64,000 nucleotides of DNA from Scytonema tolypothrichoides VB-61278 (GTDB lineage: Bacteria > Cyanobacteriota > Cyanobacteriia > Cyanobacteriales > Nostocaceae). Both the position numbers and the translations under genes were made by a program. Shown piece after piece: positions 7,512-63,940 of the stretch (position 1 is the first letter of the stretch; every line of letters begins with the position of its first letter). Below the pieces are notes generated by a model. That model saw only the letters and a program-made list of their open reading frames with translations, ran no database searches and was not told the origin of the DNA. Where the stretch lies: positions 497,378 through 561,377 of the forward strand of contig NZ_JXCA02000001.1 of the NCBI RefSeq assembly GCF_000828085.3, in the 5' to 3' direction.

Positions 7512-8243
7512 ATGAGCAAAAAAGTTGAAGTTCTTTGTGATCAAAAAGCGCTAATTGCGCGAGCGCTTGAATTGATCTTGTCTAAAATAGAAATAGCTAT
7601 CAAACAGCGTGGGCAGTTTACCATTGCGCTGTCTGGTGGCAGTACACCTAAACCGTTGTACGAAGCAATCTCTACCCAAAAACTGCCTTGGGACAAAATT
7701 CACGTGTTTTGGGGAGATGAGCGTTACGTTGCACCTGACCATCCAGATAGCAATCAGCTGATGACGCGTCGTGCGTGGTTAGATCGCGTTGAAATGCCGC
7801 CAGGTAACATCCACCCCATACCTACAGATGAAGCTGACCCCGCAGTAGCAGCGGCTAAGTACGAAAGACATCTGCAAGAATTTTTTCACGCTTCACCGGG
7901 AGAATTTCCTGCTTTAGATGTCAATTTATTAGGAATGGGAGATGATGCTCACACCGCATCTTTGTTTCCTCATACGGAAGCTTTAAAGGTTACAGATAAG
8001 CTGATCACCGTAGGGAACAAAGATGGAAACCCTCGCATCACCTTCACATACCCATTCATTAACTCTGCCCACTGCGTTATCTTTGTTGTAGCTGGTGCGA
8101 ACAAAAGACCAGCTCTTGCTCAAGTCTTTGCACCAGTGGCGGATGAATTGACTTACCCATCCCGCTTAATTCAACCTCAAGGAGAACTTTGGTGGTTGCT
8201 AGATGCAGCAGCTGGAAGTGACCTACAAAAGGACGCAGGATAA
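7512..8243 (+). CDS. pgl: 6-phosphogluconolactonase
   Basis: Hydrolyses 6-phosphogluconolactone, the second step of the oxidative pentose phosphate pathway, which supplies NADPH in the dark and in heterocysts. The 243 residues show the sugar-phosphate-isomerase-like fold: FTIALSGGSTPKPLYEA near 36-52, then FWGDERYVAPDHPDSN and LLGMGDDAHTASLFP with the His used in catalysis, and a C-terminal FVVAGANKRPAL. ATG start at 7512. The family is usually 240-270 residues, so this is full length. It stands apart from zwf, with which it is sometimes paired elsewhere. Confidence 0.94.
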   Translation: MSKKVEVLCDQKALIARALELILSKIEIAIKQRGQFTIALSGGSTPKPLYEAISTQKLPWDKIHVFWGDERYVAPDHPDSNQLMTRRAWLDRVEMPPGNIHPIPTDEADPAVAAAKYERHLQEFFHASPGEFPALDVNLLGMGDDAHTASLFPHTEALKVTDKLITVGNKDGNPRITFTYPFINSAHCVIFVVAGANKRPALAQVFAPVADELTYPSRLIQPQGELWWLLDAAAGSDLQKDAG

Positions 8244-8255
8244 AACAACAGGGAT

Positions 8256-8304
8256 GAAGTATGAGGCATTGAGTTCTATCACACTTCATAAAACTTCATA
8301 CTTC
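8256..8304 (+). terminator. Inverted repeat after pgl
   Basis: GAAGTATGA (8256-8264) pairs with TCATACTTC (8296-8304), 12 bases past the pgl stop codon. The loop is long (31 bases) and no T run follows, so termination is only a possibility. Confidence 0.3.
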
Positions 8305-8403
8305 TGCCTTCAAACAGACTTGTTAGAATCGAAAGCTAGAGTTGCTCCTCTGCTTCAAGGCACTATTATACCATTGAACATCAACAAAGGCTAACTTAAC
8401 CTC

Positions 8404-9402
8404 ATGATCGTCTGTCCTAATTGCCATCACCCAAACCCAGACGGCGCTGTCCAGTGTGAAGCTTGCTATACCCCATTACCAGCTACTAGTAACTGTCCCA
8501 GTTGTGGGGCAACCGTGCAAGCAGATGCAGCTTTTTGCGGTCAGTGTGGTTATAACCTGCGTGCAGCTACTCCCACTGCAGTTGCCGCCGCAACTGTCGC
8601 ACCTGATATTGCACCAGATGTACCGCCTCTGGTTAACCCTGATCCACTTGTACAACCACAACCTATGTCGGTTAATGGTGCTGATTACACATCCCCTCAT
8701 TCCGCATCCATACCACCAACAGCAGTTACGTTTGGTGATCCATTCGTAGAGACAACACAAAGCAGCCCCCCGCCACCAACTATAACTACGCCACCTCCAG
8801 CACCTGCTGCCAGCGAACTATCAGCACCACCAACTCCACCACCCGCACCAACTCCACCACCACCCCCAGTACAGGAACTATCAGCACCACCAACTCCACC
8901 ACCCGCACCAACCCCACCACCACCCCCAGTACAGGAACTATCAGCACCACCAACTCCACCACCCGCACCAACCCCACCCCCCGCACCAACCCCACCCCCC
9001 GCACCAACTCCAGCAGCCCAAACTCCACCGCCAACTGTGGTCTCGTCTAGTTCTTCTAGAACTCAATTGCAACAGGAGACAGCAAGACTGATCCACGTTC
9101 AAACAGACAGGATAATTGAGTTGCCGCAAAACCTTTCTGTTGTTCATATGGGCAAGCCCAATGATCGCATTCCTCCAGATGTGGATGTTTCAGGATTTCC
9201 CAATTCGGAAATTGTTTCGCGAATTCATGCTGATATTCGTTTAGAGGGAGGCGCTCATTATATCGAAGATGTAGGAAGTTCCAATGGTACCTACATCAAT
9301 AACTTGCCCTTATTGCCAGGAAATCGGCATCGTTTACGCCCAGGCGATCGCATCAGTTTGGGTAAAGGAGATTTAGTAACATTCCTGTTTCAAGTTTCCT
9401 AA
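8404..9402 (+). CDS. Zinc-ribbon, proline-rich, FHA-domain protein
   Basis: The 332-residue protein has three parts. Residues 1-50 form two zinc ribbons with Cys at 4/7/18/21 and 31/34/45/48. Residues about 85-215 are a proline/alanine/threonine linker with 20-residue repeats. Residues about 240-332 form an FHA domain that includes NSEIVSRIHADI and EDVGSSNGTYINN, the residues that bind phosphothreonine. It is expected to be cytosolic and to dock to proteins phosphorylated by Hanks-type kinases, which are abundant in such cyanobacteria. No signal peptide or membrane span. The partner is unknown. Confidence 0.85.
   Translation: MIVCPNCHHPNPDGAVQCEACYTPLPATSNCPSCGATVQADAAFCGQCGYNLRAATPTAVAAATVAPDIAPDVPPLVNPDPLVQPQPMSVNGADYTSPHSASIPPTAVTFGDPFVETTQSSPPPPTITTPPPAPAASELSAPPTPPPAPTPPPPPVQELSAPPTPPPAPTPPPPPVQELSAPPTPPPAPTPPPAPTPPPAPTPAAQTPPPTVVSSSSSRTQLQQETARLIHVQTDRIIELPQNLSVVHMGKPNDRIPPDVDVSGFPNSEIVSRIHADIRLEGGAHYIEDVGSSNGTYINNLPLLPGNRHRLRPGDRISLGKGDLVTFLFQVS
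8815..9013 (+). repeat. 60-bp tandem repeat coding the proline-rich linker
   Basis: GAACTATCAGCACCACCAAC-starting units recur at 8815, 8875 and 8935 with near identity. They then break into an 18-bp period coding PTPPPA. Because the period is a multiple of three, copy-number change would alter linker length without a frameshift. Confidence 0.9.
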
Positions 9403-50710: not shown

Positions 50711-53700
50711 TCACCGATATAACCAAACGCGCAACAGCGAAAGCAGCTGTTCGATGTCTACAGGTTTGCTAACATAATCTGATGCACCTGCTTCAATACA
50801 CTTTTCTCTGTCACCTTGCATTGCCTTTGCGGTGAGTGCAATGATTGGCAGGGATTTAAATTGATTGTTCTGGCGAATCAGGCGCGTTGTTTCATAACCA
50901 TCCATTTCTGGCATCATGATATCCATCAAAACGACATCAATATCTGGTGTGTTTTGCAAAACTTCAATGCCATCTCTACCATTTTCGGCATATAAAACCT
51001 GCATTTGATAACGTTCTAGCATACTCGTGAGGGCAAAGATATTGCGCATATCGTCATCTACGATGAGAACTTTTTTGCCCACAAGTACAGGATCATTGGA
51101 ATGCAATTGTTCTAGAATTTGTCGCTTGGGCGCAGGCAAATTGGCTTGAACTCTATGCAGGAATAAAGCTGTTTCATCAAGGAGACGTTCGGGCGATCGC
51201 ACATCTTTTATAATAATCGTCTCTGCCAAACGCCTCAGTTGAGTGTCTTCTGCCCGACTCAACTCTCTGGCTGTATAAACGATAATTGGTAGTGCTTCAC
51301 CATTGGGATGTTGTTTGATTCTTTCAATCAGTTCAAACCCGTTCATGTCGGGTAAACCCAAATCGAGAACGACACAATCAAAATAGCCATCACCTATGGC
51401 TTCTAGCGCTTCAGCCCCTGTCCTCACAGCAGTGGTTGCAACATCGCTGTTACCAATTAATTCTACAATGCTGTGCCGTTGATTATCGTCGTCTTCCACC
51501 ACCAGCAGAGTCTTCTCTCTGCGTTCAACGAAACCTTTGATTTTGTTCAATGCTTGATACAACACCTCAGTGGTGATTGGCTTTTGCATATAAGCAATTG
51601 CACCTAATTGCAATCCGCGTTGTCGCCCCTCCTCAACGGTCATGATGTGTACTGGAATATGACGGGTGCTTGGGTGATGCTTGAGGCGATCCAGCACCAT
51701 CCAACCATCCATTCCTGGTAGGCGGATATCCAAAATGATCGCTGAAGGCTGAAATTGTTGTGCCAGTGCAAGACCCCCGCTACCATTATGGGCGACAATG
51801 ACTTTAAATTCATGTTCTCGTGCCATGTCTAAAAGGATACGGGCAAAATTGATGTCATCTTCAATGATAAGAAGTATGCTATCGCCTTGTTCAATATTGC
51901 CTCTGTCGTCGGTGAGGGGAGTAAGGGAGTCAGGGAGTGAGGAGGCAGCGTTATAGGCGGGTTCCCCGACTTGTGGCGACTGCTGTGGAGATGAGGGAGT
52001 AACGGAGTGAGGGAGTGAGGGAGAGACTTCTAATTTTGAATTGATTTGTTCGCCGGACTGGGGTAAGTATAGTGTAAAAGTACTACCTTCCCCAAGACGA
52101 CTGTGAAGTTTAATTTCTCCACCAAGAAGGCGGGTGATTTCGCGACTCACTGATAAGCCTAACCCCGTACCGCCATATCTGCGACTTGTGGTGCCATCAG
52201 CTTGTTGAAACGCCTCGAAAATTATCTTTTGCTTATCTGAAGCAATGCCAATGCCTGTATCGCTGACTGCAAATGCTATCACAGTTTGAGCACGATTCAA
52301 ACTTTCCTGGTCGTGACTCCAGCCTTGTGTTGTCACAAACACCTGCAAGCGGACTTCTCCACGATCTGTAAATTTAAAAGCATTGGCGAGGAGATTTTTC
52401 AAGACTTGTTGTAAACGCTTTGGATCGGTGTAGATGCTTCTTGGCAGTTCGGGAGCGAAATTTATCGTGAAATTGAGTCCTTTATCAATGGCGATTTGTC
52501 GAAAAGTTCGCTCAATGTGTTCTTGTAATTCTGTAAGCAGCATCTGGTCTATGTCAATTGACATTGTTCCAGATTCGATTTTTGCTAGATCCAAAATGTC
52601 ATTGATCAGCGTCAAAAGGTCGTTTCCTGACGAGTAAATCGTACGGCTATACTCAACTTGTTTTGCAGTCAGGTTTTTCTCAACGTTATCTGTTAGCAAT
52701 TTCGCTAAAATCAACAAGCTATTTAGCGGTGTCCGCAATTCATGGGACATATTCGCCAAAAACTCAGACTTGTATTTTGACGAGAGTGCTAGTTGTTCGG
52801 CTTTCTCTTTTAAATCTAAGCTTGCTTGTTCAATTTCTTCATTTTTGCGCTCAACTTCTTTGTTTTGCAAAGCTAATAATTCCGATCTTTCTTCTAGTTC
52901 CGCATTTGTCTCTTGTAATTCTTCTTGCTGCTTCCTCAATAAATCCTCGGAGGCTTGCAGGGATTTTGCTTGTTCTTCTAGACGCTTGTTCGTTTCCCTG
53001 AGTTCGTTTTGCTGACTTTGTAACTCGTGTGCTAAAGACTGCGACTGTTTGAGTAACTCTTCAGTACGCATACTGGCAGCAATGGTATTCAACACAATCG
53101 CTATACTTTCAGTCAGTTGGTCGAAGAATGACAGATGAATCTCGCTAAAGCGTCGGAATGAGGCTAGTTCAATCACTGCTGTGACTTGTCCTTCAAATAG
53201 GACAGGTAAGACAACAACATTCAGCGGAGTCGCTTCGCCTAAGCCAGAACCAATTTTGACATAATCATGCGGTACCTCCGTCAGCAGAATACGTTCTTTT
53301 TCTAAAGCTGATTGTCCGACCAAACCTTCACCCAAGTAGAAGCGGTTCGCAAGCTGCTTGCGCTCACGGTAAGCGTAGCTAGTAAGCAACTTTAAGCACT
53401 GTGTTGTATCCGCATTTTCCATTATGAAGAAAACGCCATGCGAAGCTCCAACAAGCGGTGCCAACTCGGAAAGTATTAGTTTAGACACAGTTTCTAGGTC
53501 ACGCTGACCTTGAAGCATGCGGGTGAATTTAGCTAAGTTAGTTTTCAACCAGTCTTGTTCAGTGTTTTTCTGCGTTGTCTCGCGCAGGTTGGCAATCATT
53601 TGGTTGATGTAGTCTTTAAGCATGGCGACTTCACCTTGCGCCTCAACGGAAATTGAACGCGTTAAGTCGCCTTTGGTGACAGCAGTTGCGACTTCGGCGA

Positions 53701-56700
53701 TCGCCCGCAACTGAGTTGTCAGGGTAGCAGCCAGTTCATTCACGTTGTCAGTCAAATCTTTCCAAGTTCCCGCAGCCCCCGGCACTTTCGCTTGTCCGCC
53801 CAACTTACCTTCAATTCCCACCTCACGCGCCACGGTTGTTACCTGGTTAGCAAACGTCGCCAGAGTACCAATCATCTCATTAATTGTTTCTGCCAAAGTT
53901 TCAATTTCTCCTTTGGCATCCAGCGTGAGTTTCCGCTTCAAGTCACCATTCGCAACCGCCGTCACAACTTTGGCAATGCCTCGCACTTGTGCGGTTAAGT
54001 TACCCGCCATCGAGTTCACATTATCGGTTAAATCTTTCCAGGTACCCGCCACACCGACAACCTGTGCTTGTCCACCTAGCTTACCTTCAGTTCCCACTTC
54101 ACGTGCAACCCGCGTCACTTCAGAAGCGAAAGACGAAAGCTGATCCACCATCGTATTGATGGTGTTCTTGAGTTCTAAAATTTCGCCTTTAACATCAACA
54201 GTAATTTTCTTCGACAAGTCACCATTTGCCACCGCCTTCGTCACTTCGGCAATATTCCGCAATTGTGCCGTCAAGTTGCCTGCCATTAAGTTGAAGTTGT
54301 CGGTCAAATCTTTCCAAGTTCCGGCAACACCTCTGACGTAAGCTTGCACACCCAACTTACCTTCAGTTCCCACTTCACGGGCAACCCGCGTCACTTCCGA
54401 TGCAAACGAGTTGAGTTGATCCACCATCGTGTTGATGGTGTTCTTGAGTTCTAGAATTTCACCTTTAACATCAACAGTAATTTTCTTTGATAAGTCACCA
54501 TTCGCCACCGCCGTTGTGACTTCAGCAATGTTCCGCACTTGTGACGTCAAAGAACCCGCCATTGAGTTCACACTGTCGGTTAAGTCCTTCCACGTTCCCG
54601 CAACGCCTCGAACTTCAGCTTGCACGCCCAGTTTTCCTTCAGTTCCCACTTCACGGGCAACCCGCGTCACTTCAGAAGCAAACGAATTGAGTTGATCCAC
54701 CATTGTGTTCACGGTGTTTTTCAACTCCAAAATCTCACCTTTGACATCAACAGTAATTTTCTTCGACAAGTCACCAGTCGCCACCGCCGTTGTCACAGCA
54801 GCAATGTTCCGCACCTGCGCCGTTAAGGAACCCGCCATGAAGTTGACGCTGTCGGTTAAGTCTTTCCAAGTTCCAGCAACACCGCGCACATCTGCTTGTA
54901 CGCCCAGCTTTCCTTCAGAACCGACTTCCCTAGCAACCCGCGTCACCTCAGAAGCAAAAGAGTTGAGTTGATCCACCATAATATTGATGGTGTTTTTCAA
55001 CTCCAAAATTTCCCCTTTCACCTGTACAGTTATTTTCTTAGAAAGGTCACCGTTTGCGATCGCTGTCGTCACATCAGCAATATTCCGCACTTGCGCCGTC
55101 AAGGAACCCGCCATGAAATTCACACTGTCGGTCAAATCTTTCCAAGTTCCCGCAACACCCGGCACATCTGCTTGTACACCCAGTTTGCCTTCAGTTCCCA
55201 CTTCACGCGCGACTCGCGTCACCTCAGATGCAAAGGAACTGAGTTGATCCACCATCGTGTTGATAGTATTTTTTAACTCTAGAATTTCGCCTTTGACATC
55301 AACAGTGATTTTCTTTGATAAGTCACCAGTTGCAACTGCTGTCGTCACTTCCGCAATGTTCCGGACTTGCGCCGTCAAAGAACCCGCCATGAAGTTCACA
55401 CTGTCAGTCAAATCCTTCCACGTACCAGCTACACCCCGTACTTCTGCTTGTACGCCCAGCTTTCCTTCTGCACCCACCTCGCGCGCAACCCGCGTCACTT
55501 CACCCGCGAAAGAGTTGAGTTGATCCACCATCGTGTTGATAGTATTTTTCAACTCCAGAATTTCGCCTTTGACATCAACAGTGATTTTCTTCGATAAGTC
55601 ACCATTCGCCACCGCTGTTGTGACTTCGGCAATGTTCCGCACCTGCGCCGTCAAAGAACCCGCCATGAAGTTCACACTGTCGGTCAAATCTTTCCAAGTA
55701 CCAGCACCACCTTTGACATCCGCTTGTACGCCTAGCTTTCCTTCAGAACCCACTTCCCTAGCAACTCGCGTCACCTCAGAAGCGAAGGAACTGAGTTGAT
55801 CCACCATGATATTGATGGTGTTTTTGAGTTCTAGAATTTCACCTCTGACATCAACAGTGATTTTTTTGGAGAGATCACCGTTGGCGATCGCCGTCGTCAC
55901 TTCCGCAATATTCCGTACCTGCGCCGTCAAAGAACCCGCCATCAAATTCACATTATCGGTCAAGTCCTTCCAGGTACCAGCAACACCTCGCACTTCTGCT
56001 TGTACACCCAGCTTCCCTTCGGTTCCCACTTCCCTTGCAACCCGCGTCACTTCAGAAGCAAAAGAATTGAGTTGATCTACCATCGTATTGATAGTATTCT
56101 TCAACTCCAAAATTTCACCTTTAACATCAACAGTAATTTTCTTCGATAAGTCACCATTCGCCACCGCTGTTGTGACTTCCGCGATATTCCGCACCTGCGC
56201 CGTCAGAGAACCCGCCATGAAGTTCACGCTGTCGGTCAAATCCTTCCAAGTTCCAGCAACACCCCGTACTTGGGCTTGACCACCGAGTTTACCATCTGCA
56301 CCCACCTCACGCGCAACCCGCGTCACTTCCGATGCAAAAGAATTGAGTTGATCCACCATAATATTTACGGTGTTCTTCAACTCCAAAATTTCACCTTTGA
56401 CATCAACAGTAATCTTCTTCGATAAGTCACCATTCGCCACCGCCGTTGTTACTTCAGCAATATTACGGAGTTGTGCCGTCAAGTTTCCTGCCATCAAGTT
56501 GACGCTGTCGGTCAAGTTTTTCCAAGTCCCAGCAACACCCCGCACTTGTGCTTGTACGCCCAGCTTACCTTCTGTTCCGACTTCCCTAGCAACCCGCGTC
56601 ACTTCAGAAGCAAAAGAGTTGAGTTGATCGACCATTGTATTGATGGTGTTTTTCAACTCTAGAATTTCACCGTTCACATCAACAGTAATTTTCTTCGAGA

Positions 56701-57355
56701 GGTCGCCATTTGCCACAGCGGTTGTTACTTCAGCAATATTACGAACTTGTGCGGTTAAGTTTCCCGCCATTAAATTTACACTGTCCGTCAAGTCCTTCCA
56801 AGTTCCAGCCACACCTGGAACTTCTGCTTTCACTCCCAGCTTGCCTTCAGTTCCCACTTCCCTGGCAACTCGTGTGACCTCGCTGGCAAACGAATTCAAC
56901 TGACCCACCATTGTATTGACCATTTGGGCAGTTTGCAGAAATTCTCCTTTTAGGGGTCTGCCATCAATTTCTGGTGCGATCGCTTGAGATAAATCACCAT
57001 TTGCCACAGCCCGGATCACACGCGCCGTTTCCGCTGTCGGCTGAACCAAATCTGTCACTAGGGTGTTGACAGAATCCACACACACTGACCAAGAACCACG
57101 AACATTTCCCAAAGACGCGCGTTCACTAATTTTGCCATCTTTACCAACAACATGACTAATCCTGTGTAACTCTGTTGTTAGCCGCTCATTTTGTTCAATA
57201 ATATCGTTGAGCGTATCAGAGATTTTTCCTGCTATGCCTGTTTGGTCTAAAGGCATACGGGCAGAAAAGTCACCTTTTTTAACAGCTACCAGCGTTTTCA
57301 GTAGCTGTTTTAAATCTAAATTATCGTTTTCTCTGGTTAACTGTTCAGTGGACAT
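50711..57355 (-). CDS. Giant poly-HAMP hybrid histidine kinase with three receivers
   Basis: 2214 residues, with no membrane span seen, so probably cytosolic. Order: two diverged HAMP units (about 15-158); twelve ~92-residue repeats (about 159-1263), each with [10 protein letters not shown]-x-EGKLG and a [20 protein letters not shown] segment, i.e. a canonical/divergent HAMP pair; a GAF domain (about 1280-1420); a coiled coil; HisKA with MSHELRTPL (H1538); HATPase_c with [15 protein letters not shown] and [13 protein letters not shown]; and three receiver domains with D1876, D1998 and D2145. The plan resembles fungal group III osmosensing kinases (Nik1 type). The low-complexity linker before the first receiver is coded by repeat DNA. 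It sits alone with no response regulator beside it. Confidence 0.95.
53570..56880 (-). repeat. Twelve 276-bp repeats coding the HAMP array
   Basis: The HAMP array is coded by near-identical 276-base units; neighbouring units differ by scattered synonymous changes. The periodicity also creates long plus-strand open frames of ~88 codons every 276 bases, which are artefacts. Copy number could change by recombination without shifting frame. Confidence 0.93.
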
Positions 57356-58015: not shown

Positions 58016-60073
58016 ATGACAACTAAGCTGCTGAATAATCGCTATCAAGTTCTCCAGGTACTAGGTGCCGGTGGATTTGGTGAAACTTTTTTGGCGGAAG
58101 ATATTCATATGCCTTCTCGCCGTCGCTGCGTAATTAAGCAACTCAAACCCGTAGTCAACAACCCGCAAACTTATCAAATCATCCAAAACCGATTTGAACG
58201 AGAAGCTGCAACCTTGGAGTATTTGGGCGAAGGTAGTGACCAAATTCCCAAACTGTTTGCCTACTTTTCTGAAACAGGGCAATTTTATCTGGTTCAAGAA
58301 TGGATTCAAGGTCAAACTCTAGCACACATCATTAAGTCACAAGGGGTACTTAGCGAAACGACTGTTAGGGAAATGTTATTGAGTTTGCTGTCCGTATTGG
58401 ATTATGTCCACAGTAAAGGGATTATTCATCGGGATATCAAACCTGACAACATCATTATCCGCTCCTCGGATGGCAAACCTGTTTTAATTGATTTTGGTGC
58501 GGTAAAAGAAACAGTACGTTCAGTGGTGAGTCCTGCAGGATATCCCGCACAATCACTGGTTATTGGTACACCAGGCTATATGCCGAGTGAGCAAGCTATT
58601 GGACGCCCAGTTTACGCCAGTGATATTTATAGTTTAGGCATGACGGCAATTTACTTGCTCACGGGTTTATACCCAAGTGAACTACAAACGGATCCTCAAA
58701 CTGGTCAAGTGACATGGCATCACTTCGCCCCTCAAGTATCCCAAAACTTGGTGATGATACTCAATCAGGCAATTAGGCCACATGCAAGCGATCGCTACAC
58801 TACCGCCAGCAAAATGCTGTATGCTTTGAGATCTGCAACTTCTCTCCCCACAGTGGAACCAACAGCAGCCTCTCAACCAACAGTACCCCTAACGAGTAGG
58901 GGTTCTGGTGCATCATACTCGTCACAGTATACCCAACCACCATTGCCCTCCAATCGAAAAGCTGCTGTTATTCCGGTTTCTTCCACTTCAGCGAACTGGC
59001 AAAAACCTGCTTGGATTGTAGGCAGTATGGTTGTGGGTAGCTTAATTGGTGGAGTCGCCATTGGCAATATAAATCGTCAAACCTCTGAAGTTCCGATTGT
59101 GACATCGCCCACCTCTACACCGCTTCCAGCAGCTAACGAAACAAATCCAATTCCTGCAACCGCGTCCCCAACTCCTACTTCTCAAGCTAGGATACGTAGA
59201 AATAGGAGGATTATGACACCAGATCCAGTTGTCATTGCACCTAGCCAGTCGCAACAGCAGCCAGAAGCTTATATATCTGCTTCACCCTCAGTTGTTCCTG
59301 ACTCGAAATCACAGTTATCAACAATTGAGCCTGTGCCGGAACAACAAGTCCCTGAACAATTGCAAACTCCAGCTATTTTCACTCCACAAGAAACCATACC
59401 GCAAGAATCTATTCCACAACAATCTACACCACAAAAAACGGAACAACCACCTACATCACAAAAACCACAACAACAATCTATTCCACAACAACAACCTACA
59501 CCACAAAAAACGGAACAACCACTTACATCACAAAAACCACAACAACAATCTACACCACAAAAAACGGAACAACCAGTGCCTTCTCCTACTCTTACCTCAA
59601 CTCCACAAGTTTCCACTCCACCTCCACAGCCGGAAAAACAAAGTACTGCAATTCCCAATACCAGTAGTCATGATGTTCCTGCATTTCCCGTTGGTTCTTC
59701 AGAAGATACTGTTACAGCAGCCTTAGGAAAGCCAACTAAGGTTTCAAGAGGTGCGTTTGGGAGAACTCGTGCTTACCTTTACCAGCGTGATCCAAATCGC
59801 TTTGATCTTGGTTATTTGTTTGATCGTCAAACAAAACTGCTGCGTCAAACAGAAGTTTCTTTTGCCCAATCTGTTGGATCCGAAGTGATGCAGAATACAT
59901 TGCAGGGGATGCTAGGAGGTAATGCTTCTGGTGACATTAAGCAAGGACTACAACAAGTTTATGAGCGGAAAACGAATCGGTACTCTTTTAATGTTGGTGG
60001 ACTCAAAGGGTCGATAGAACGCAATTCAGAAGACCAAATTTACATTGCAATTTGGGATGCTAACTTGCATTGA
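58016..60073 (+). CDS. Serine/threonine protein kinase
   Basis: 685 residues. The N-terminal Hanks-type kinase (about 10-270) has the glycine loop GAGGFGETFL (17-26), Lys K41 in CVIKQLK, HRDIKPDN (138-145, catalytic D140) and DFG (159-161). A single membrane helix near 333-350 (WIVGSMVVGSLIGGVAIG) is followed by a Gln/Pro/Thr repeat linker (about 460-540, units like TPQKTEQP) and a C-terminal domain of about 120 residues (FPVGSSEDTVTAALGKPTKV onward) with no clear name. The tail is predicted outside the membrane as a sensor. It could phosphorylate proteins read by the two FHA proteins in this window, but that is only a guess. Confidence 0.93.
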   Translation: MTTKLLNNRYQVLQVLGAGGFGETFLAEDIHMPSRRRCVIKQLKPVVNNPQTYQIIQNRFEREAATLEYLGEGSDQIPKLFAYFSETGQFYLVQEWIQGQTLAHIIKSQGVLSETTVREMLLSLLSVLDYVHSKGIIHRDIKPDNIIIRSSDGKPVLIDFGAVKETVRSVVSPAGYPAQSLVIGTPGYMPSEQAIGRPVYASDIYSLGMTAIYLLTGLYPSELQTDPQTGQVTWHHFAPQVSQNLVMILNQAIRPHASDRYTTASKMLYALRSATSLPTVEPTAASQPTVPLTSRGSGASYSSQYTQPPLPSNRKAAVIPVSSTSANWQKPAWIVGSMVVGSLIGGVAIGNINRQTSEVPIVTSPTSTPLPAANETNPIPATASPTPTSQARIRRNRRIMTPDPVVIAPSQSQQQPEAYISASPSVVPDSKSQLSTIEPVPEQQVPEQLQTPAIFTPQETIPQESIPQQSTPQKTEQPPTSQKPQQQSIPQQQPTPQKTEQPLTSQKPQQQSTPQKTEQPVPSPTLTSTPQVSTPPPQPEKQSTAIPNTSSHDVPAFPVGSSEDTVTAALGKPTKVSRGAFGRTRAYLYQRDPNRFDLGYLFDRQTKLLRQTEVSFAQSVGSEVMQNTLQGMLGGNASGDIKQGLQQVYERKTNRYSFNVGGLKGSIERNSEDQIYIAIWDANLH

Positions 60074-60920: not shown

Positions 60921-61769
60921 ATGACAAATCAACCCGATTTCGATGTTTTCCTCGCTCATAATAGTCAGGATAAACCCCTGGTTAGAGCCATTGCAAGCAA
61001 ATTGAAACGGCGTGGTTTGAAGGTGTGGCTAGACGAAGAGCAAATTGCACCAGGACGCGCATTTCAGGATGTGATTCAACAGGCAATTTCCAATGTTAAA
61101 TCTGCTGCTATCTTCATTGGAACGGGGGGATTGGGAAAATGGCAGATACTGGAGTTGCGGTCACTTATCAGCCGACTTGTAGAAGCAGACATTCCTGTGA
61201 TTCCTGTCTTATTACCAGAGGTTGAGGGAATTCCACAAGATTTGCTCTTCCTCCAAGAACTAAATTGGGTGAGTTTTGCAAATGGAATAGATGATATTGA
61301 AGCGTTAGACAAATTGGAGTCGGGCATTAGGCAAAAACAGGTAAAAAGCTTACCAAAAACTTCTGGACGCTTCGATGTTCTCTTGTGCTACAACGACGAA
61401 GACCGCAACGAAGTAAAGCAAATTGCCGAACAACTCAAGGAAAGGCAGATTCGACCTTGGCTTGATATATGGGAAGCTTTTGCTGGCACTTCCTGGCAAC
61501 AATTACTGGAAACTCAAATAGCCAAAATAAACTCACTAGCAGTTTTTATAGGCAGAAGTGGAGGACCTTGGCAACAAGAGCAAATAGAGCCTTTCATATG
61601 GGAATTTATTGAACAAAAACGTCCTGTTATCCCTGTTATTCTGCCGAATGTCCTGCAAGAGCCGCAACTTCCCATCTACCTCCGACGCCGAACTAGGGTT
61701 GATTTTCGTCAGCAAGACCCTGAACCGATAACCCAATTAATCAATGGCATACCTGAAGTTAATGAATAG
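60921..61769 (+). CDS. Tandem TIR-domain protein
   Basis: 282 residues made of two TIR domains (about 6-135 and 150-272). The first opens FDVFLAHNSQDKPLVRAIAS and has GLGKWQILELRSLIS, where E78 sits where TIR NADases carry the catalytic glutamate. The second (FDVLLCYNDEDRNEVKQIAE) reads GPWQQEQIEPF, with Gln at the matching position, so it may be non-catalytic. TIR proteins signal in immunity, often by consuming NAD. AGGAG lies at 60906-60910. The paralogue starts 16 bases after the stop, so they are co-transcribed. Confidence 0.9.
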   Translation: MTNQPDFDVFLAHNSQDKPLVRAIASKLKRRGLKVWLDEEQIAPGRAFQDVIQQAISNVKSAAIFIGTGGLGKWQILELRSLISRLVEADIPVIPVLLPEVEGIPQDLLFLQELNWVSFANGIDDIEALDKLESGIRQKQVKSLPKTSGRFDVLLCYNDEDRNEVKQIAEQLKERQIRPWLDIWEAFAGTSWQQLLETQIAKINSLAVFIGRSGGPWQQEQIEPFIWEFIEQKRPVIPVILPNVLQEPQLPIYLRRRTRVDFRQQDPEPITQLINGIPEVNE

Positions 61770-61785
61770 TAGGAGGAATCTTTAG

Positions 61786-63207
61786 ATGGTAAATCAGCCA
61801 GAATTCGATGTTTTTTTGGCTCACAATAGTCAGGATAAGCCTCAAGTGAAAGCTATTGCATCTGAACTTAAAAGGCGTGGTTTAAAAGTATGGATAGATG
61901 AAGAGCAAATTTTGCCAGGACGCCCATTTCAGGATGTGATTCAACAGGCGATTTCCAATGTCAAATCTGCTGCTATCTTCATCGGTTCACAAGGGCTGGG
62001 AAAGTGGCAGGTTATGGAACTGCGGATACTTATTAGCCAATGTGTAGATGCAGATATTCCTGTAATTCCCGTTTTGCTACCAGGAGTAGAGGGCATTCCA
62101 GCGGATTTGCTCTTTCTCCACCAATTCAATTGCCTAAGTTTTGCTAGTGGCATAGATGATGTAGGAGTACTAGATAAACTAGTGTCAGGAATTACCCAGC
62201 AGCAACCAAAAAGCTCATCAAAAACTGCCGAACACTTCGATGTTCTCCTGTGCTATGACGACGAAGACAGAAGCGAAGTTCAGCAGATTGCGGAGCAGTT
62301 AAGACAACGGCAAATTAGACCTTGGCTGAATCTGTGGGAAGTGCCTCCAGGCAGATCGTGGCAAGAATTACTGGCTGCTCAGATAGCGCAGATCCACTCA
62401 GTAGCCATTTTTATTGGTAGTAAATCAAGTCCCTGGCAGAAAGAGGAAATAGAGTCTTTCATATGGGAATTTATTGAACTAAAGCGTCCTGTTATCCCTG
62501 TTATTCTGCCGAATGTCTTGCAAGAGCCGCAACTTCCCATCTATCTGCGAAGCAGAACTAGGGTTGATTTCCATCAGGATAAGGCTGAAGCATTTTACAA
62601 CTTAGAATGGGGCATTACCCAAAGAAAACCAAAAAACAGGCTGAAAACCTTAGACGAAAGCAACTCTTCTGTACAGCAAACGAATTACTATGCTCATCTA
62701 GAGGAGTTACTAGCAGCAGAAAAATGGCAAGAAGCTGACCAGGAAACTAAAAAACTTCTGCTAGAGTTATCTGGGAAAAAACAAAATGAAAAGTTGGGAG
62801 TAGAAGAAATTAGAAACTTTTCCTGTGAGATTCTATGTACTATAGACAAACTATGGGTGAAATACAGTAACGGACGCTTTGGCTTTAGTGTCCAGAATAG
62901 TATCTGGCATAAAACTAGAGCAAAGCCTTGGTGGCAGAAGTTGAAAACTAAGTTTTTAGGTAATAGTGGTAATGACAATAATAATGAAAAAGGCTATTGG
63001 TACAGATTTGGAGAAAGTGTCGGATGGTACAAAGAACTCAAGAAAGATCAAAAAAATTGGGTTCAATATAAAGATATAACATTTAATATTAATGCTCCTG
63101 AAGGACACCTTCCCTATTGTAGGGAATGGTGGAAAGGAATGCGGTATGAGCATGAGGCTGGACGTTTTTCTGCCCTAATGTTGAGACTTGAAAATTGTAA
63201 AAAATAG
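61786..63207 (+). CDS. TIR-TIR-GUN4 fusion protein
   Basis: 473 residues. Residues 1-270 duplicate the upstream protein: TIR1 has GLGKWQVMELRILIS with the candidate Glu, and TIR2 has SPWQKEEIESF. Residues about 300-470 form a GUN4 domain: YYAHLEELLAAEKWQEADQE, FSCEILCTIDKLWVKYSNGR, FGFSVQNSIW and INAPEGHLP are all typical. GUN4 domains bind porphyrins in the Mg-chelatase activator, so here the domain may sense a tetrapyrrole or act as an adaptor for the TIR part. AGGAGG at 61771-61776 precedes ATG. A separate GUN4 gene follows after 82 bases. Confidence 0.92.
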   Translation: MVNQPEFDVFLAHNSQDKPQVKAIASELKRRGLKVWIDEEQILPGRPFQDVIQQAISNVKSAAIFIGSQGLGKWQVMELRILISQCVDADIPVIPVLLPGVEGIPADLLFLHQFNCLSFASGIDDVGVLDKLVSGITQQQPKSSSKTAEHFDVLLCYDDEDRSEVQQIAEQLRQRQIRPWLNLWEVPPGRSWQELLAAQIAQIHSVAIFIGSKSSPWQKEEIESFIWEFIELKRPVIPVILPNVLQEPQLPIYLRSRTRVDFHQDKAEAFYNLEWGITQRKPKNRLKTLDESNSSVQQTNYYAHLEELLAAEKWQEADQETKKLLLELSGKKQNEKLGVEEIRNFSCEILCTIDKLWVKYSNGRFGFSVQNSIWHKTRAKPWWQKLKTKFLGNSGNDNNNEKGYWYRFGESVGWYKELKKDQKNWVQYKDITFNINAPEGHLPYCREWWKGMRYEHEAGRFSALMLRLENCKK

Positions 63208-63289
63208 CAACTATATCAAATCAGTTAACACAAACAAAAGCTGCACAGTCTTATAGTAAAAAAGAAGTATCAGAATAAATCCTCACAAC

Positions 63290-63940
63290 ATGGTGGAGCA
63301 ACAAGATAGCGAACTCTTAACACACCTAGCTTATTTATTGGAAGCAGGAAGATGGCAAGAGGCTAACATAGAAACAAAGAAGATAATCCTTAAGGTAGCT
63401 GGTCAAGAAAAAGAAGGCTATCTAACCGATGAAAAAATTCAACAATTTCCTAGTCAAATTCTCCGCCAAATTGACACACTGTGGAATAACTACAGCAATG
63501 GGAAATTCGGCTTTAGCGTCCAGAAGCGCATCATGAGAGAGTCAAAAAAAGACCCTCAAGCTTTTGGACAGCGCGTAGGATGGCGTGACCAAGACGGCTG
63601 GATTTCTCCTAGTCGCATAATTTATAACCCTATTACTGCCCCAGAGGGACATCTCCCTTGGGGAGTTATACAAGTAATTACCTTAGATAATGCGGGTTTG
63701 GATGCTATTGTTGGCACTATCAGATGGGGAACAAAAGCATTAGCTAAACAAGACTGGCAGAGACAGCTAATTGTAGATTTTGTCGATTTTATGAATACGG
63801 TGACAGGAGATAAAAGTGATAAGGAAGTAATGAGAAGAAATTTAGAATATGAACTATCTCATGATGAAGCGTGGTGGAAAGGACAAAGACTCGAAGAACA
63901 TAAGGTTAATAAGCTGTTTTCTCTCCTTGTCATTTTTTAA
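63290..63940 (+). CDS. Stand-alone GUN4-domain protein
   Basis: 216 residues: LLTHLAYLLEAGRWQEANIE, FPSQILRQIDTLWNNYSNGK and FGFSVQKRIM mark the GUN4 fold, and APEGHLPWG the late loop. After that loop about 70 extra residues (DNAGLDAIVGTIRWGTKALA and onward) separate it from the closing WWKGQRLEEHKVNKLFSLL, an insertion not usual in the family. No TIR domain. It closely resembles the GUN4 part of the gene upstream and probably belongs to the same unit. Confidence 0.88.
   Translation: MVEQQDSELLTHLAYLLEAGRWQEANIETKKIILKVAGQEKEGYLTDEKIQQFPSQILRQIDTLWNNYSNGKFGFSVQKRIMRESKKDPQAFGQRVGWRDQDGWISPSRIIYNPITAPEGHLPWGVIQVITLDNAGLDAIVGTIRWGTKALAKQDWQRQLIVDFVDFMNTVTGDKSDKEVMRRNLEYELSHDEAWWKGQRLEEHKVNKLFSLLVIF

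Follow-up and report, generated by a model that had tools for sequence, protein, structure and literature searches.

The DNA analysed here is a stretch of 64,000 nt (hereafter the window) from Scytonema tolypothrichoides VB-61278 (contig NZ_JXCA02000001.1, positions 497,378 to 561,377), in which three genes on the forward strand, p1, p2 and p3, combine TIR and GUN4 domains. The original prediction described them as closely spaced genes pairing duplicated tandem TIR proteins with two GUN4 domains, one fused and one free. The open reading frames (ORFs) were found exactly where they had been placed, with gaps of 16 bp between p1 and p2 and 82 bp between p2 and p3. The first gene, p1 (60921-61769), encodes a TIR-TIR protein of 282 aa, with domains at 60945-61316 and 61371-61718 (two Pfam TIR_2 matches, 2e-42). 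The second, p2 (61786-63207), encodes a TIR-TIR-GUN4 fusion of 473 aa, identified from its ORF, Pfam, AlphaFold and Foldseek, with TIR domains at 61801-62148 and 62242-62595 (two TIR_2, 4e-41) and the GUN4 domain at 62674-63129 (5.5e-37). The third, p3 (63290-63940), encodes 216 aa and has a GUN4 core at 63317-63661 (1e-33). The fused copy was thus as predicted; the free one is not a bare GUN4 domain, as its residues 125-216 (63662-63937) form a conserved C-terminal extension of 92 residues (EXT) that recurs in other sampled genomes. Residues 1-280 of p2 are 73% identical to p1, which indicates that the pair arose by duplication. AlphaFold models of p2 and p3 matched solved GUN4 and TIR structures in Foldseek, and the matches of p2 included AbTir and SARM1, so that the TIR fold of NADase and cyclase effectors is present and the prediction is not refuted on that count.

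Bacterial TIR domains are often NAD-cutting suicide enzymes. The catalytic glutamate was scored in an alignment against the WxxxE motif of AbTir. It is kept in three of the four TIR domains of the unit, namely the first domain of p1 (WQILE) and both domains of p2 (WQVME and WQKEE), and is replaced by glutamine in the second domain of p1 (WQQEQ). The same split was observed in the wider alignment. All 16 aligned GUN4-fused TIR domains keep the glutamate, whereas 5 of the 10 TIR domains of free TIR-TIR proteins have lost it: the second domain of p1, three domains in genome G210 (Gly, Gln and Pro) and one in G024 (Val; G, C and L numbers are our labels for genomes, contigs and loci). Based on this, enzymatic activity would reside in the GUN4-bearing protein, with the free TIR-TIR protein as a partner whose active site is relaxed, a division of labour suggested by the aligned residues.

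Linkage of TIR and GUN4 recurs in over a dozen genomes. The nearest locus belongs to G210, a member of another GTDB family, and encodes TIR-TIR, TIR-TIR and TIR-TIR-GUN4-EXT proteins in a row, the last of which joins a p3-type GUN4-EXT to a p2-type TIR-TIR in a single gene. Single TIR-GUN4 fusions were found in Brasilonema, Calothrix, G267 (two), G077, G128, G274, G236, G155, G243, G242 and the host genome itself (C2:1024 kb), and in G054 a TIR-GUN4-EXT is fused to a HipA-like kinase (L104, 7985-10435; Couple_hipA and HipA_C). The host genome holds five TIR_2 genes. Three of the five, namely p1, p2 and the TIR-GUN4 gene located at C2:1024 kb, carry a GUN4 domain or lie next to one, an association far beyond chance. 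These results support the predicted co-function of the two domains and the expectation that GUN4 genes would be found beside TIR genes in relatives. The host genome also encodes a TIR-iSTAND protein at C1:1419 kb (L126).

In a GUN4 tree of 148 sequences, with few alignment columns and many unresolved forks, the TIR label requires at least 13 changes. This suggests that fusion or separation of the two domains has occurred many times and that GUN4 is a repeatedly recruited module. The GUN4 domains of p2 and p3 fall in different, well supported clades, that of p3 being the nine-member clade with GUN4-EXT (support 100/100), to all of which EXT is common. Both have relatives linked to effector-associated domains (EADs). 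A relative of the p2 domain (L065) is an EAD8-GUN4 protein adjoining EAD8-iSTAND, EAD8-trypsin, MoxR-like AAA and VWA_CoxE genes. The p3-type GUN4-EXT is fused to EAD10, in one case beside a caspase-EAD10 gene and in another next to the MoxR ATPase gene of a Tolypothrix plasmid, and was also found with EAD1, trypsin and TIR..HipA. Both GUN4 domains hence lie on branches used in predicted conflict systems. Together with the retained glutamates, these sister domains (EAD8, EAD10 and EAD1 fusions, two beside MoxR ATPases) agree with the effector or conflict-system role that had been anticipated for the locus. An EAD8 system was seen at L105, comprising EAD8-trypsin, EAD8-GUN4, EAD8-iSTAND, MoxR-like AAA and VWA_CoxE.

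At other loci the TIR gene has a different partner, a protein of 165 residues named SML here, which carries the motif PFGIG..W.AD.TE. and has no match in Pfam or PADLOC. Of 293 genomes of the order, 25 encode it, at 30 loci, and at roughly two thirds of these it directly adjoins a TIR gene. Members of the family lie at L096:10597-11094, L020:4967-5464 and L136-L165; the TIR-GUN4 locus of the host at C2:1024 kb is one that has SML. The C-terminal part of the SML-linked TIR protein is exchangeable, and can be GUN4, GUN4-EXT, an FGE-sulfatase domain (Pfam 5e-59 and 3e-61) or repeats. The TIR-FGE-sulfatase fusions occupy the same operon position as TIR-GUN4 (L141:1958-3340, L149:1-1477, L143 and L162). 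The FGE-sulfatase/C-type lectin-like domain is of the kind that diversity-generating retroelements (DGRs) diversify as a variable domain.

We favour, with moderate confidence, the reading that the unit is a TIR NADase module, a cell-death or immune effector within the predicted conflict repertoire of filamentous cyanobacteria, with GUN4 repurposed as its sensor or adaptor. The likely effector is p2, whose two TIR domains with catalytic glutamate are carried by a C-terminal GUN4-derived domain that would sense or dock something other than a tetrapyrrole. The duplicated p1, with one dead TIR, would probably take part in a TIR filament as a subunit that co-assembles or regulates, while p3, the counterpart of which is fused to TIR-TIR in G210, may act in trans as a second sensor or adaptor with its own EXT. 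The trigger could be an invader product met by the GUN4 domain of p3 or p2, or a GUN4 contact between the two proteins, an option also named in the original prediction. After this, p2 and p1 would assemble via TIR contacts, and the TIR domains of p2 would cleave NAD or make a signal of the cyclic ADP-ribose type. The cell would then stop growing or die. The activity, assembly, trigger and outcome proposed here are modelled on the families involved.

Several observations weigh against this reading. The exact p1-p2-p3 trio was seen only in the host genome among those sampled, and the window locus has neither an SML-type partner gene nor a remnant of one. By inspection, the approximately 40-46 kb downstream contained no recognisable defence gene, whether EAD, MoxR, vWA or any other. 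Model confidence was low for the second TIR domain of p2 and for the EXT of p3. In addition, TIR domains may also serve as scaffolds.

The GUN4 domains could alternatively be pure adaptors, that is, EAD-like homotypic docking domains, with p3 recruiting p2 and p1 to a core sensor encoded elsewhere, such as a GUN4-kinase, GUN4-KAP-NTPase or GUN4-AAA protein. We consider this unlikely. It would fit the distribution of GUN4 in the host genome, where 14 matches were found. One of these is chlorophyll-type (L001/L018, 'GHLPLSNQLRG'), and the others sit on kinases, TIR, KAP-type NTPase, trypsin and AAA_35 proteins, among others. It would also fit the presence of a paired GUN4 copy in the adjacent gene here, as EADs are proposed to act by homotypic pairing (Kaur et al. 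2020, PMC7159879). According to the same paper, however, EAD pairs encoded by neighbouring genes tend to be mutual closest relatives, and the GUN4 domains of p2 and p3 are in different clades.

Canonical GUN4 is a Mg-chelatase cofactor of the chlorophyll pathway. A second alternative is a TIR effector gated by a tetrapyrrole or bilin, in which GUN4 reads the pigment pool and fires TIR when photosynthesis collapses, for example upon infection. Gating by a tetrapyrrole was part of the original prediction, and the idea is also raised in general terms by Kaur et al. 2020 (PMC7159879). The bilin motif LxNxLR, which directly follows GHLP (Synechocystis numbering), is lost in paralogues (Rockwell and Lagarias, PMC10156173). 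In our set it was present in 1 of 143 distinct GUN4 domains, the chlorophyll-type copy of the host, and missing in the other 142, none of which has more than two of the four motif residues. The corresponding segment is 'YCREWW' in p2 and 'WGVIQV' in p3, and nowhere else does the family vary as much. The arginine of the motif, by its position, seems to correspond to Arabidopsis R211, mutation of which lowers porphyrin affinity several-fold (PMC8967248). In favour of gating, the GUN4 fold is intact in p2 and p3 (Pfam and structure matches), and p2 has an aromatic residue (Tyr) at the position of Synechocystis Trp192, as estimated by offset count. Moreover, the Chlamydomonas GUN4 variant N219G loses bilin binding and keeps porphyrin binding (PMC10156173), so that loss of the asparagine alone would not rule out porphyrin. 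Since all four residues, arginine included, are gone from p2 and p3, tetrapyrrole gating of the unit is unlikely on this sequence evidence, and the broader pigment-sensing alternative is given a low probability. A GUN4 domain protein was also detected in a contig labelled Lentisphaerae (L048); either this contig is mis-binned or GUN4 paralogues extend beyond cyanobacteria.

It is very unlikely that the three genes are only a chance or decaying product of duplication and do not work together: the uniqueness of the trio, the loss of one TIR active site and the absence of SML would fit it, but the three frames are all intact, the glutamate is kept in three of four active sites, including both of p2, and G210, from a separate GTDB family, retains a comparable unit.

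Beyond the window, the terminal tails of most GUN4 paralogues cannot be aligned between relatives, yet each tail has defined bounds at the DNA level. Upstream it is bounded by the GHLP codons and downstream by the element TCTCTTCTCTCGCGTCGAGACTTGTAAACTGTAACATATAAGG, which in many copies is followed at a fixed distance by ...TACCTGGCACTG. Such loci include C2:1023825, C4:521182, C6:622500 and C10:143834 of the host, and L166-L255 and L283-L290. The element was searched by its 24-nt core with up to 2 mismatches. Within the order, 97 of 283 genomes carry it (the control gave 3 hits), as do about a dozen of approximately 215 genomes from other orders of the class. Of 105 distinct element sites in the DNA examined, 92 follow a GUN4 domain, the remainder being truncated loci, weak matches or unresolved cases. 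Four plasmids of cyanobacteria also carry the element, which lies at the end of a GUN4 gene in all three that were checked, and no copy was found in viral contigs or phage records. It is entered in all three frames (37, 23 and 22 of 82 scored genes), and the proteins terminate like FSRVETCKL, SLASRLVNCNI or LLSRRDL, at a frame-specific stop within the element. No conserved RNA structure was detected by RNAalifold, and no Rfam match was obtained.

The tails are 22-175 nt long and rich in G and T, with a G+T content of 0.71 versus 0.51 in the GUN4 coding DNA next to them (73 of 77 distinct tails). Only one in-frame stop was observed in them, versus 91 predicted by shuffling, which indicates that the tails are translated and selected. 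Unrelated tails were found despite GUN4 DNA of 90-94% identity (L212/L213, L250/L251 and L241/L242). Similarly, two tandem kinase-GUN4 genes in G253 share 97-99% identity over most of the first kilobase and an identical element core, and differ in their tails. Between some close orthologues the tails are stable (L181/L204 and L241/L246). At L290 (G237, 8180-8460) two elements lie 70 nt apart with a short G/T-rich spacer, as if a new tail and element had been added upstream of the old one. Silent cassettes were rejected as a source, as no second genomic copy was found for the two tails searched (host C2 GUN4 and G243 C59). A DGR origin was rejected as well, because tail lengths and frames change, rather than substitutions alone, and G253 has no RVT_1 hit. 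The reverse transcriptases among the host loci read are a cas1-adjacent one and group II-type ones, with no DGR type among them. The former, as judged from sequence, lies directly beside a cas1-like gene (L116). Reverse transcriptases beside cas1 are of the kind associated with the uptake of CRISPR spacers from RNA.

The tails of p2 and p3 are conserved, and a possible degenerate remnant of the element (GAGACTTGAAAATTGTAA) was noted on the forward strand in the p2 frame at 63168-63200, a weak match (E=2.7) at the expected position. Both points suggest that the window unit is a fixed branch. It is a tentative proposal, to which we give slightly less than an even chance, that cyanobacterial GUN4 paralogues, including the TIR-GUN4 protein at C2:1024 kb, are variable receptors, and that p2 and p3 belong to fixed-tail branches. 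In these receptors, the C-terminal segment at the former position of the tetrapyrrole motif would be replaced by an undescribed, non-DGR process, by which G/T-rich, apparently untemplated DNA of variable length is installed upstream of a conserved element of approximately 125 bp with a stop in every frame. If so, the TIR, kinase, AAA and KAP outputs would each be under the control of a diversified receptor. If the pattern is programmed, it would represent a bacterial receptor diversification that alters both sequence and length, for which we know of no close precedent.

Regarding the surroundings of the unit, a Ser/Thr kinase gene on the same strand (58016-60073) ends 847 bp before p1. It is probably a separate transcription unit and was not counted as part of the system. 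A promoter and terminator scan around the unit gave scores no higher than those of shuffled sequence. The downstream genes, judged from sequence, are of the exopolysaccharide type (membrane-fusion, sugar-nucleotide, glycosyltransferase and ABC functions) and do not form a defence island. Further upstream, positions 50711-57355 encode a protein of 2214 aa with many near-identical HAMP-like repeats, followed by apparent GAF, histidine kinase and receiver domains.

Other systems were compared with the unit. PADLOC model PDLC04062 (PD-T4-6) matched p2 and p3 at its GUN4 part, profile positions 295-450. PD-T4-6 is a kinase family, whereas p1-p3 have no kinase domain in Pfam. The match shows only that the model includes a kinase-GUN4 protein, and it was rejected as evidence of defence, as was a phage-resistance report with a mutated GUN4/kinase gene (PMC10811720), in which each strain bears several mutations. 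The TIR similarity to ThsB of Thoeris is weak, and no ThsA partner ORF (SIR2/SLOG or transmembrane) was recognised among the neighbours by inspection rather than by hidden Markov model search. The fold is that of canonical GUN4 (1Y6I, 4XKB and 7E2T), but the GUN4 domains of the window lack LxNxLR and are TIR-fused or EXT-bearing. The variable tails resemble those of DGRs in having a bounded C-terminal segment ahead of a conserved 3' DNA element, but they differ in changing length, using all frames, being G/T-rich and having no equal-length template. The p2 and p3 GUN4 subfamilies occur fused to EAD8 and EAD10 in EAD-linked MoxR-vWA ternary conflict systems (Kaur et al. 2020, PMC7159879; PMC8195603). 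The unit itself is not a member of that class, having no EAD in p1-p3 (Pfam) and no EAD, MoxR, vWA or VMAP recognised within reach.

The closest published likeness is given by Kaur et al. 2020 (PMC7159879), which notes GUN4 fused to TIR, kinases, caspases and trypsin, citing Davison 2005, and proposes a conflict-system role for polypeptides that unite GUN4 and TIR. A trypsin-GUN4 gene with a Trypco1 neighbour at C1:599 kb, approximately 40 kb from the unit, matches an arrangement given in that paper. The original prediction knew of no description of the design; the TIR-GUN4 fusion as such is described, but, as far as the text available shows, the tandem TIR-TIR unit whose GUN4-EXT partner is encoded separately and the loss of the tetrapyrrole motif in effector-linked copies are not. 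The orphan GUN4 genes of cyanobacteria may be a sensor or adaptor domain recruited onto TIR, kinase and protease outputs, and not pigment sensors, and a concrete two- or three-gene TIR system is now named for testing. Relative to the open-licence literature, as far as searched, the new elements are the tandem TIR-TIR unit together with its GUN4-EXT partner, the division of TIR domains into intact and degenerate ones, the EAD-linked kinship of the p2 and p3 GUN4 domains, SML as a TIR partner and, most of all, the variable tails.

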